64,000 nucleotides of DNA. Source: Radicibacter daui. Its GTDB lineage: Bacteria > Pseudomonadota > Alphaproteobacteria > Radicibacterales > Radicibacteraceae. The stretch spans positions 124,001-188,000 of the forward strand of contig CP131057.1 in assembly GCA_030657355.1 (NCBI GenBank). The letters run 5' to 3'. Of the stretch, positions 475 through 5,126 are shown piece after piece (within the stretch, counting starts at the first letter, position 1; each line of letters opens with the position of its first letter). The notes below the pieces were generated by a model. The model saw only the letters and a list, made by a program, of their open reading frames with translations, was not told the DNA's origin and did no database searches. The translations under genes and the position numbers were made by a program.

Positions 475-3400
475 TCAATGATTGACCCTCAGCGTATCCG
501 TCAGGCGCTTGGCGAGGATGTGGGTGAGGTTGAGGGTGACGGCGGCGTTTTCCTGGATGAGCTTGAAGAAGAGCTCGCTGGTAATCACCATCGCCTCCAC
601 CTTCTCGCGGGCACGAATGGTGGCGGTGCGCGGGGCTTCCGTCAGCAGCGCCAGCTCGCCGATCAGCTCACGGCCCACGCGGGTGGCGATGGTCTGGATG
701 CCCTGATCGCTCTGCAGGATGATGTCCACGCTGCCATCCAGCACCACATAGGCGCGGTCGCCCTTTTCGCCCTGGCGCACGATGATTTCGCCGGGCTGAA
801 ACACACGCCGTTCGGCGGCGAAGGCCAGCAGCTTGAGGCGGGAGGCATCCATGCCCTTGAAGAAGGGAATGGCGGACAGCACCTCGACCTCGCGGCCGAG
901 GGCGGTGGACTGGCGTTGCGGCCGGCTGGCGTCATCCTGCTGCTCGGCGGCGGGTTCGGCCGCCATAAGCTCGCCCGAGCGCTCGATGCCGGCGATGCGG
1001 CCGCTATCCATACGGATGACGAGATCGAAGGAGATATTCTCCGGCAGGGCGCTCTCGATCCACAGCAGGCCGCGATCCTTCATCGTCTCGTCGAGGTCGG
1101 TGAGGATGGCTTCGCGCAGGGCGGGTTCCAGCGCGCTCAGCGCTTCGTTGATGATGAGAAGCTGCGGGCGCTTGAGGATGGCGCGGGCGAGCGCCAGCTT
1201 CTGGCGTTGCTCGACGGTAAGGCGTTTGCCGGCAATGCCGGTTTCCATCTCCAGGCCGACCTGCAGCACTTCCTCATAGACACCCTCTGACTGGATGAGG
1301 TCGCGCAGGGCGGCCCCGATGCGGGCACCGGCATCGGGGCGCAGGCTGTCCACCTTGCCGAAGAGGATGTTGTCGCTGATGGAGGCATCGGCCTTGAACC
1401 GGTCGACCTCGAAAAAGGCGACGGCGTCCTTCAGATCTTCCGGCAGGCGCTCGGCAAACAGGCGCCGGGCCTTGAGGACATCCTCCTCCATCGCCTCGTC
1501 GACGAGGCCGAGGCGGTGGCGGGCCGGCACCATGCGGAAGGTAAGGCTGATGAGCCGCGCGCGGTCCGGTGCCGGCAGCGCGGCAAAGCCGGACTGGCGC
1601 ACCACGCCCAGCATGCGCTGGAAATCGGGCAGGTCTTCATGATCGATGAAGCTGTAGCGCTCGAAGAATTCATGTCCCGGCGGCAGGTCGCGGAAGATTT
1701 CCAGCATCAGCCCGGCGATATCGTGGCCTACCCGCAGGAAACGCTCGCGCAGGCCGGCCGCATCGAGGATGTGCATGACATAGGCCTGCTCGGCGATGTG
1801 CTCCTGCCGCAAGCGGTCGTCGAGCGGGGTGCCGAACAGGATGTTCTCGGCAATCGAGGCGTTCTGGTTGAAGCGCTCGCGGTCGAACACTTCGACAAGG
1901 CCGGCAATCGCCGGATCGTCCAGCCTTTCGCGGAAGCCGCTGCGGATGGTCAGCAGTTTTTCGGCAAGAGCCGGATGGCGCTCCGGATTGACCGGGCTGC
2001 GCAGGCCGGCGCTGAAGATATCCTCCTCCAGCCGCACCAGCTTGAGCGCGGCTACGCCTGCTTGTACCAGTCCGTCGCGGTCGCCATATCCCAGCGCCTC
2101 GGTATCGATCCAGTCGGCATTGATGTCGAAGGCGCTGTTACCGGCGGCAAGGCTCTCATCAAGGCGCTTCAGCCGGTCGGCCGGCACACCGTCATTGCCG
2201 TGGCGGGGATAGTTGCGGATGCCATAGAGCAGGTTGTCGCGGATGGTGCCGGCGCGGATATAGGCCTCTGCATCAACATAGCCGATACGCCGGCCGGTGA
2301 CGGCCTCGGGCAGGGAGGCTAGGTCTGTCGACCCTACGGTCAGGCGCCCGCCCGTCGGCAGGAACTGGCGCGCCAGCAGCCGGGCGAGGTCGCCCTTGCC
2401 GCTGCCACCGGGGCCGATGATGGCGCCGTGGCAATCGAGCGGCATGGTGAAGGAAATACCGTCGAGCACGCGCCCGCCATCATCATCCGCCAGCTGAAGA
2501 TTTGTGGCGGTCAGCGGGCCTTCCAGCAGGGGCGGGTCTTCCTGCCCGTCGATCAGCAGGGTTTCGTCCATCAGCGTCGGCAGCTCGAACTGCTCGACCA
2601 GCTGGTCGTATTTGACCTTGGTATCCATCATGGTCTGGTACCAGGTCAAAAGCTCCTTCCATGGGGCTGACAGGTCCTTGTAGGCGGCGAGCACGGCAAC
2701 GAGCGCACCGAAGGACAGATCGCCGTCGATGACGAGGAAACCGCCGATCGAATAGAAGAAAAACGGCGTCAGCTGCCCAAGGAAGTTGTTGAGAAACTTG
2801 ATAAAAAACTTCTTGTTATAGATGTCGAAACGGACATCGTAGATCTCGCCGAGCTGGTCGGAAAAAGCAGCGAGTTCATAGCGGCTGGTATCGTTGGCAT
2901 GGATGTCGGGCGCGCCGGAGACCAGCTCGCCGATCCGCTCGGAAAGCTTGCGCACATGGCGCACGCGCTGCTTGCCCAGCTGGTTCACCCGGCGCTGGAG
3001 GCGCGGGATGATAAGGGCCTGCACCGGATAAAGCGCAATGGCGGCCAGACCCATCATCGGGTCCTGCTTGGCGATGAAAAAGAGGGTGGTGATCAGCACG
3101 CCGCCCTGGAAGGCCGGCACGGAAAAACTGTCACCGACGAAACCGCCGAGCGCCTCGGATTCCGTGGTGATCATCGCCACCATCTCGCCCTGGCTGACTT
3201 TCCGGAAATGCGGCAGCGGGAAGCGGATGATGCGATGAAGCAGCATGAAGCGCAGGCGGCGCAAAAGCCGCTCGGCCATCACGCCGGTATAGACGCTGAT
3301 GATGTATTTGAAGGCGCCATTGATCAGCACCAGCGCCAGGAACAGGCCGCTGAGGATCGCCAGATATTGCAGCTGGCTGAACTGGACACCCAGCAGCGGC

Positions 3401-3558
3401 TTGGGAAAGCCCGAGCCGCCGATGGCTTCGTTGACGATCTGCTTGGGCAGGTCGAGCGAATAATAAAGAAAGGGGAAGGAGCCGAAGATCAGGGCCAGCA
3501 GCACGATCTGCTGTGTGCGGCTGTATCTCAGCGTGAAGGAAAAAATACCTTTTTCCAC
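475..3558 (-). CDS. Giant ABC transporter-like protein with cyclic-nucleotide-binding C-terminus
   Basis: 1027 residues. About 1-320 is an ABC type 1 exporter transmembrane domain. A Walker A (GPGGSGKG, 382-389) follows. The ATPase part runs to about 860, twice the normal length, because the Q-loop-type module appears three times: GTIRDNLLYG (437-446), ASIAENILFG (567-576) and ASISDNILFG (725-734). The signature is LTVEQ (780-784) rather than LSGGQ, Walker B reads LLIINEAL with Asn for Asp but Glu805 kept, and the usual His-switch segment reads WIESAL. Residues about 895-1010 form a cNMP-binding domain with a canonical phosphate-binding cassette (GELALLTEAPRTAT, Arg977). It lies 88 bases downstream of a nucleotide cyclase on the same strand. 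Likely role: a membrane ABC protein controlled by cAMP or cGMP; substrate unknown. Whether it hydrolyses ATP is doubtful but possible. Confidence 0.85.
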   Translation of the reverse strand: MEKGIFSFTLRYSRTQQIVLLALIFGSFPFLYYSLDLPKQIVNEAIGGSGFPKPLLGVQFSQLQYLAILSGLFLALVLINGAFKYIISVYTGVMAERLLRRLRFMLLHRIIRFPLPHFRKVSQGEMVAMITTESEALGGFVGDSFSVPAFQGGVLITTLFFIAKQDPMMGLAAIALYPVQALIIPRLQRRVNQLGKQRVRHVRKLSERIGELVSGAPDIHANDTSRYELAAFSDQLGEIYDVRFDIYNKKFFIKFLNNFLGQLTPFFFYSIGGFLVIDGDLSFGALVAVLAAYKDLSAPWKELLTWYQTMMDTKVKYDQLVEQFELPTLMDETLLIDGQEDPPLLEGPLTATNLQLADDDGGRVLDGISFTMPLDCHGAIIGPGGSGKGDLARLLARQFLPTGGRLTVGSTDLASLPEAVTGRRIGYVDAEAYIRAGTIRDNLLYGIRNYPRHGNDGVPADRLKRLDESLAAGNSAFDINADWIDTEALGYGDRDGLVQAGVAALKLVRLEEDIFSAGLRSPVNPERHPALAEKLLTIRSGFRERLDDPAIAGLVEVFDRERFNQNASIAENILFGTPLDDRLRQEHIAEQAYVMHILDAAGLRERFLRVGHDIAGLMLEIFRDLPPGHEFFERYSFIDHEDLPDFQRMLGVVRQSGFAALPAPDRARLISLTFRMVPARHRLGLVDEAMEEDVLKARRLFAERLPEDLKDAVAFFEVDRFKADASISDNILFGKVDSLRPDAGARIGAALRDLIQSEGVYEEVLQVGLEMETGIAGKRLTVEQRQKLALARAILKRPQLLIINEALSALEPALREAILTDLDETMKDRGLLWIESALPENISFDLVIRMDSGRIAGIERSGELMAAEPAAEQQDDASRPQRQSTALGREVEVLSAIPFFKGMDASRLKLLAFAAERRVFQPGEIIVRQGEKGDRAYVVLDGSVDIILQSDQGIQTIATRVGRELIGELALLTEAPRTATIRAREKVEAMVITSELFFKLIQENAAVTLNLTHILAKRLTDTLRVNH

Positions 3559-3646: not shown

Positions 3647-4972
3647 TTAGTTCCGCACCACCGGCGCGAACAGCCCGACAGCGCCAGAAGTTCCGCGAAG
3701 GGCGTGATCGCCAAGGAAACGCCAGTGTTCGTTCGGCAGCAACGCGGCAAAATTGGCGCTGACGATGACGGGCTCTCCCAGCTCCTTGGTCAGGCTTTCG
3801 AGGCGGGAGGCGGTGTTGGCGGCATGGCCGATGACGGAGAATTCCAGCCGTTCCGGCACGCCGATATTGCCGAACATCACCTCGCCGCAGTGAAGGCCGA
3901 TGCCGATACCGATGGGCAGTTTGCCATGCTCGAGGCGGCGCTGGTTCCACTCCTCCAGCCGGCGCAGGGCTTCCTGCATGGCCCGGCGGGCCCGGCGGGC
4001 GCCTTCCTCGGCAGAAACCTGCGGGAAGATGGCGAGCACGGCGTCACCGATGAAACGCAGCACTTCACCGCCCTCCGCCAGCACGGCGCCGGCGGTACAT
4101 TCGAAATAGCGGTTGAGCAGGCGCAGGAAATTTTCCGGCGGCATGCTCTCGGCAAGGCCGGTGGAGTTGCGGAGATCCGAAAACCAGATGACGGCCGATA
4201 TGCTCTCGCCGTCACCGCGGCGGATTTTGCCGGCGAGCACCCGCTGGCCGGCATCGGGGCCGAGATAGGTGGTGGCGAGATTGTTCGCCATCTCCCACTT
4301 GATGCCGACATTGAGAGTGACGGCCATGCGGCGCTGCACGCGCATGATGTCGGCCAGATGCGCCTTGGTGAAGCCCTCCGGAGCATCGGTGGTCCAGGAG
4401 CAGATGACCCCGTGCTCCAGCATCGGGCCGGGATGTCCGGGCAGCGGGCGGCCGAGCTCGGTGGCGATGGCGAGATAATCGGTGTGGCCGTCCTCCGCCA
4501 GCTCCTCCAGCACCAGGAAATCGAGCATCTTTTCCGGGCCGGTGAGGCGCCGGCGCAGCATCGGGACCTTGTGCTCGAGGATGTAGCTCATCGGGCTGCG
4601 CGCCCATACGGCGCGGTCGTCGGTGCTCTTGTTGTCGCCGGGCTTGTCCAGTGGCTTGTCGAGGCGGCTGTCTTCGCCGTCGGCGAAATGGCGGTGGTCG
4701 AAAGATTCGATCTCCTTGCCGCGTTCCCATACGAAGCTGCGCGCCCGCAGCATCGGGTGCAGCGTGCGGTATCCCAGCATGACACGGCTGATCGGCACGC
4801 CGGCGGCATAAAGCCGCTCGCAGGTCCCGGCCACCACCTGGTCGAGCGCAGGGGTCGAGAGCGACTGATCGACCAGCCACTCCGTCAGCGCATCGACCAT
4901 GATGTTGGGCTGGCGCTCGGAAATGGCGCGCAGGGTGGCGGGGTCGGTCAGGAAACTCGTCTGGAGCGACAT
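3647..4972 (-). CDS. Class III adenylate/guanylate cyclase
   Basis: 441 residues from the ATG at 4972 (GGAAG eight bases upstream; a GTG 15 bases further up is less likely). The first 250 residues are an uncharacterised input region. The cyclase homology domain is about 255-440: FSDLRNST supplies metal-binding Asp266, GEVLRFIGDAVLAIFP supplies Asp310, and SVIGHAANTASRLE supplies Asn386 and transition-state Arg390. The residues that normally choose adenine, Lys and Asp, appear as Arg306 and His383, so ATP versus GTP specificity is open. No membrane segment is evident, so a cytosolic enzyme is likely. It precedes the ABC protein with a cNMP-binding domain in the same direction, which suggests that enzyme and receptor are made together. 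Confidence 0.9.
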   Translation of the reverse strand: MSLQTSFLTDPATLRAISERQPNIMVDALTEWLVDQSLSTPALDQVVAGTCERLYAAGVPISRVMLGYRTLHPMLRARSFVWERGKEIESFDHRHFADGEDSRLDKPLDKPGDNKSTDDRAVWARSPMSYILEHKVPMLRRRLTGPEKMLDFLVLEELAEDGHTDYLAIATELGRPLPGHPGPMLEHGVICSWTTDAPEGFTKAHLADIMRVQRRMAVTLNVGIKWEMANNLATTYLGPDAGQRVLAGKIRRGDGESISAVIWFSDLRNSTGLAESMPPENFLRLLNRYFECTAGAVLAEGGEVLRFIGDAVLAIFPQVSAEEGARRARRAMQEALRRLEEWNQRRLEHGKLPIGIGIGLHCGEVMFGNIGVPERLEFSVIGHAANTASRLESLTKELGEPVIVSANFAALLPNEHWRFLGDHALRGTSGAVGLFAPVVRN

Positions 4973-5126
4973 GGAGGCACTTCCCACGAAGGCGCAGCCT
5001 TGATGCTATCGCAACTGCCGGCACGGCGCCGTAACATTCCATACATCTGCCGGTAAGGATATGTCCGTTATCCGGCTAACTATGTTCTGCCGATGGCGTC
5101 AATAACCGCTCCGGCAAGTGGTCTGG

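Follow-up and report, generated by a model that had tools for sequence, protein, structure and literature searches.

The window analysed here is a 64,000-nucleotide stretch of Radicibacter daui DNA (contig CP131057.1). The gene under study (475..3558) is an ORF encoding an ABC-like protein of 1027 amino acids with a C-terminal cNMP-binding domain; it lies on the minus strand, an orientation that the original prediction had not given, and so do all the parts of this gene located below. Directly upstream, separated by a gap of 88 bases, lies a gene for a class III adenylate/guanylate cyclase of 446 amino acids (3647..4987, minus strand). Two ORFs abut the ABC gene at its 3' end: one encodes a ribbon-helix-helix protein (141-419 of the window, minus strand), and the other, short and resembling RelE/ParE toxins, extends across the window's left boundary (G000:C2:123860-124153). 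An annotated RelE/ParE toxin likewise adjoins the cNMP gene of Rhizobium 3841.

An exporter-type TMD occupies residues 1-325 of the protein (2584..3558), with a match to Pfam ABC_membrane (PF00664) over residues 64-291 (E-value 1.9e-20). In the NBD, the match to Pfam ABC_tran (PF00005) is split. The first part of the NBD (residues 345-446, 2221..2526; ABC_tran at 365-458) runs up to a first Q-loop module, DNLLYG (residues 441-446, 2221..2238). The insert that follows (residues 447-728 here, 1375..2220) is about 285 residues long and lies in the helical subdomain of the NBD. The C-terminal cNMP-binding domain spans residues 890-1022 (493..891), of which residues 918-1004 match Pfam cNMP_binding (PF00027; E-value 6e-19). 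It contains a phosphate-binding cassette, GELALLTEAPRTATIRA (residues 967-983, 610..660), that is canonical, as had been read from the sequence at the outset.

The original prediction had described an ATPase region of about twice the normal length containing three modules of the form (D/E)N(I/L)L(F/Y)G, and both observations hold. The distance from Walker A to the signature is 398 residues, where six exporter loci of Radicibacter daui have 104-109. The protein contains the pattern [DE]N[IL]L[FY]G at exactly three places (residues 441-446, 571-576 and 729-734), well beyond the mean of 0.0004 occurrences per sequence obtained when the protein is shuffled. Modules 2 and 3 belong to a true internal repeat of about 47 columns with 43% identity: its profile score is 79.7, and none of 100 column shuffles scored above 19. 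Module 1 matches modules 2 and 3 more weakly, with scores of 29.5 and 32.1 that were reached in none of 100 shuffles. These scores were computed from separate, non-overlapping segments of the alignment. Residues 529-576 (copy 1, 1831..1974, including module 2, ENILFG) and 687-734 (copy 2, 1357..1500, including module 3, DNILFG) are homologous repeats, and module 1 is the ordinary Q-loop, situated in its usual helix and separated from the signature by some 285 additional residues. In a phmmer search, stretches 363-447 and 706-858 both align to a single P-glycoprotein NBD, over regions that overlap and share the Q-loop.

We then examined the predicted structure. A model of residues 335-866 has a pLDDT of 64, with values of about 80-90 in the core and about 40-78 in the insert. 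It aligns to known NBDs with Z-scores of about 22-23 (23.1 for the ComA NBD, with an rmsd of 2.6 over 228 residues), figures to be read with the modest quality of the model and a possible bias in mind: two of the sequences in the underlying alignment were canonical ABC proteins encoded in the window, and their presence may have drawn the core towards a normal fold. The insert is predicted, at modest confidence, to be mostly helical and looped out of the NBD core. It had been suggested that the extra sequence might form partial ATPase lobes; the model of residues 335-866 has a normal core and a mostly helical insert, and contains no second or additional lobe. A full-length AlphaFold model, for which the alignment consisted of near-identical Inquilinus proteins only, reached a pLDDT of only 38. 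The profile search of the insert that had been proposed was also run, and gave no credible match in either Pfam or the PDB (best PDB E-value 0.85, to a cytoglobin), a result that does not itself indicate a new fold.

A normal NBD carrying unrelated loops was the outcome that the original prediction had set against its own reading. The predicted core does appear normal, and a normal core plus loops is what would be expected of a decaying or ordinary exporter in which the extra residues are unrelated loops. However, the insert holds duplicated Q-loop segments forming a true internal repeat, its length is nearly constant among 50 members of the family (272-294 residues, with two longer exceptions of 319 and 357), and invariant residues are retained in it across divergent members. 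Moreover, the ORFs are intact across members drawn from a third of the class sample. Judged by this conservation, the idea of unrelated loops is largely refuted and we consider it very improbable.

The catalytic motifs of the window protein are extensively altered. Walker A (GPGGSGKG, residues 382-389, 2392..2415) is substituted at the S/T position. The signature is a degenerate LTVEQ (residues 780-784, 1207..1221). Walker B (LLIINE, residues 800-805, 1144..1161) has exchanged its Asp for Asn, although the catalytic Glu805 is intact, and in the H-loop segment WIES (residues 833-836, 1051..1062) the His position, as placed by the family alignment, is Ser836. The changes originally reported in signature, Walker B and His-switch are thus all borne out. 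Only one of the five motifs scored, the catalytic Glu, is canonical, so that the protein lacks a complete, intact set of Walker A, Walker B, signature and His motifs; exporters encoded in the same genome have canonical ATPase motifs.

Is this decay peculiar to one protein? Five motifs were scored in 51 aligned members of the family. Lys plus S/T in Walker A is found in a single member, the LSG signature in four, the Walker B Asp in seven, the H-loop His in 22 and the catalytic Glu in 29. No more than three of the five occur together in any member; L083, L084 and L026 retain none. Loss of the canonical ATPase motifs is therefore well supported as a property of the whole family. Because the Walker and signature halves are both altered on the same chain, no canonical ATP site would be formed, whether the protein were a homodimer or paired with a normal half. 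This favours a messenger-regulated, ATPase-impaired protein derived from an exporter, and the earlier view that this is no ordinary pump is a reasonable one, based on the family-wide degeneracy together with the conserved cNMP cassette.

One could nevertheless argue that the protein is still an ATP-driven glycan exporter with an unorthodox but working ATPase, in which the insert and an acidic residue immediately C-terminal to the Walker A Lys make up for the lost motifs. In 42 of the 51 members, an Asp or Glu comes next after the Walker A Lys/Arg; the Lys itself persists in 34 and the D-loop Asp in 46. The frequencies of the catalytic Glu and His given above, the predicted normality of the NBD core, and the fact that the nearest curated models are the MsbA and HepA exporters would all suit such a pump. 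Some weak ATPase activity is possible, since about half of the members retain the catalytic Glu or His. Against an active pump stands the joint absence, from nearly all members, of the Mg-binding Ser/Thr, the Walker B Asp and the signature, as well as the single canonical motif of the window protein and the complete loss in L083, L084 and L026. Overall, we regard an active pump as rather unlikely, though with a real chance of being correct.

Unlike the decaying ATPase motifs, the cNMP cassette is canonical at nearly all loci of the family, and the closest PDB chains to the domain include the regulatory domains of PKG and PKA. In most relatives, the domain is encoded by a separate gene of about 150 codons immediately after the ABC gene. 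The fused ABC-cNMP form makes up one clade of the tree (10 of 54 rows, support 96/89), which supports a single fusion or split event, in either direction. Within this clade, the cNMP cassette of L083, L084 and L026 is more degenerate, as are their ATPase motifs, and this subgroup may therefore have lost ligand control as well.

Next, we asked how widely the family is distributed. At a threshold of E<=1e-60, matches are present in 96 of the 289 alphaproteobacterial genomes sampled, about a third, a few of these matches covering only part of the query. Rhizobium, Sinorhizobium and Azospirillum are among the genera concerned. In a sample of the phylum, 28 of 398 genomes gave matches, of which 27 are Alphaproteobacteria and the remaining one is TMD-only. 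No relatives were found among viral contigs. One near-identical, Inquilinus-type copy comes from a record titled Mycobacterium sp. KBS0706 (L013), a label that is probably wrong unless the assembly is mixed. Searches of the open-licence literature found no paper on the family, none on redA/redB (gene names taken from an R. etli record), and no phenotype under the locus tags that we guessed for S. meliloti and pRL11. The proteins are best explained as an uncharacterised alphaproteobacterial family derived from ABCB-type exporters.

What do the relatives of this gene have as neighbours? The usual order is a peptide-type ABC importer, a protein designated c4, GT28, a histidine phosphatase, GT4, GT4 and a GT28-like gene, followed at most loci by the divergently oriented ABC-like, cNMP and methyltransferase (PF12692) genes. 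The cluster comprises four glycosyltransferases, the histidine phosphatase, c4, the methyltransferase and the importer. No Pfam family matches c4; from the look of its sequence, this protein might conceivably be a deacetylase. Neighbours of the ABC-like gene include the cNMP gene at 46 of 51 loci, GT4a at 35 and GT28a at 33. On pRL11 of Rhizobium 3841, the locus contains a cyclase, importer genes, three glycosyltransferases and the ABC-like and cNMP genes. Members of the fused clade possess the glycan genes mostly unlinked to the ABC-like gene; in Radicibacter daui they occupy C2:73448-86333, on the same replicon as the ABC gene and about 38 kb away from it.

Linked or not, the two are kept together. 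Among the 289 genomes, 90 contain both ABC-like and GT28a genes, out of totals of 96 and 91, respectively; the ABC-like gene occurs alone in six and GT28a alone in one (Fisher p ~2e-66, a value that overstates independence as the genomes share ancestry). These genomes are scattered over about 70 genera. The association of the family with a glycan-type gene cluster is, on this genomic evidence, well supported, and the enzyme classes suggest that the product is a surface glycan. The original prediction of a ligand-gated scaffold rather than a pump was made without sight of this neighbourhood, whose genes point to a part in exporting or assembling a surface glycan.

The cyclase encoded next to the ABC gene is 37% identical over 432 amino acids to that of the equivalent pRL11 locus, the N-terminal part being the same in both. 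The Radicibacter daui genome encodes two or more paralogues related to it. The cyclase was considered as an obligatory partner and rejected: few of the loci have it as a neighbour, and its family is large and multi-copy.

Of the large regions of the ABC-like protein, the TMD is the most conserved, with a mean pairwise identity of 0.555 versus 0.37-0.43 in the NBD core and inserts, and many of its polar and charged positions are invariant. A TMD-only relative of 434 amino acids without an NBD is encoded on pP66_b of Phaeobacter inhibens (L096:9773-11077), within a group of copper oxidase and cytochrome c genes; it is 42% identical to residues 1-324 of the window protein. Further TMD-only relatives were identified in G106, G396, G616 and G619. 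In these, the TMD apparently functions without an ATPase domain.

Such relatives, together with the degenerate NBD, the large conserved insert that matches no known relative and the retention of unlinked glycan genes in the same genomes, would be consistent with a protein that transports nothing, i.e. a membrane scaffold or signal relay whose exporter fold recruits or switches glycosyltransferases upon binding of cyclic nucleotide. But the conservation of the TMD and its invariant polar and charged positions suggest that a substrate path is under selection, and we consider a scaffold without transport unlikely.

Taken together, these results lead us to propose, at a little under an even chance, that the family consists of cyclic-nucleotide-regulated, ATPase-impaired ABCB-type proteins serving the export or assembly of the cluster's glycan; both the ligand gating and the choice between transport and scaffolding are inferred. 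A more specific version is put forward tentatively, as possible but doubtful: that ATP-driven pumping has been given up, and that the protein acts in surface glycan export as a conduit or switch gated by a cyclic nucleotide, the insert linking ligand binding to the TMD. Mechanistically, the regulated ABCB-type protein would form a dimer in the inner membrane, with the lipid-linked or oligosaccharide product of the glycan cluster as its substrate. The cNMP part would bind a cyclic nucleotide, for which the neighbouring cyclase is a plausible source at this locus, and the binding would move the NBD/insert assembly from one state to another. The protein would thereby let the product across the membrane, or hand it on. 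ATP, if bound at all, would serve as a structural or slow ligand and would not drive each cycle. If this is true, a bacterial ABC exporter has been converted into a messenger-controlled gate or switch that is widespread in Alphaproteobacteria, and would provide a model for an ABC fold working after the loss of its ATPase chemistry. It might also provide a direct link from cyclic nucleotides to an envelope polysaccharide, the glycan concerned being apparently uncharacterised.

The nearest published design that we found in the open-licence literature is HetC of Nostoc PCC 7120, a peptidase-containing ABC exporter with a cNMP domain that is N-terminal, binds ppGpp in vitro and is needed in vivo, and in which an ATPase residue is essential (PMC10986499). 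HetC and the window protein both combine an exporter-type TMD, an NBD and a cNMP-binding domain in one chain. However, a Pfam scan found no peptidase domain in the window protein, the cNMP domain of the present family is C-terminal or separate, and it is this family that has degenerate ATPase motifs and an insert of about 285 residues. MsbA- and HepA-type ABCB exporters, which are associated with glycan or lipid export, likewise have an exporter TMD and an NBD on the same chain, but the match of the window protein to them is interrupted by the insert and its catalytic motifs are changed. It scores 156.5 bits with the MsbA equivalog model TIGR02203, far below the cut-off of 602, and 143 bits with the HepA model NF045513 (cut-off 725). 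Sinorhizobium meliloti MsbA2 (SMb21191) has been described as an ABC exporter whose gene lies beside glycosyltransferases on pSymB (PMC3687685, PMC12239276). It was considered as a possible member of the family and rejected: the S. meliloti 1021 member lies at 841,723-844,945, and the MsbA2 operon is near 938 kb, about 95 kb away. Finally, CFTR and SUR, of the ABCC group, are ABC proteins with the role of a gated channel or regulator. They are eukaryotic, at least one of their ATP sites is closer to canonical, and they have no cNMP domain; the likeness that we draw is one of analogy, to a role other than pumping, and implies no kinship with the family described here.
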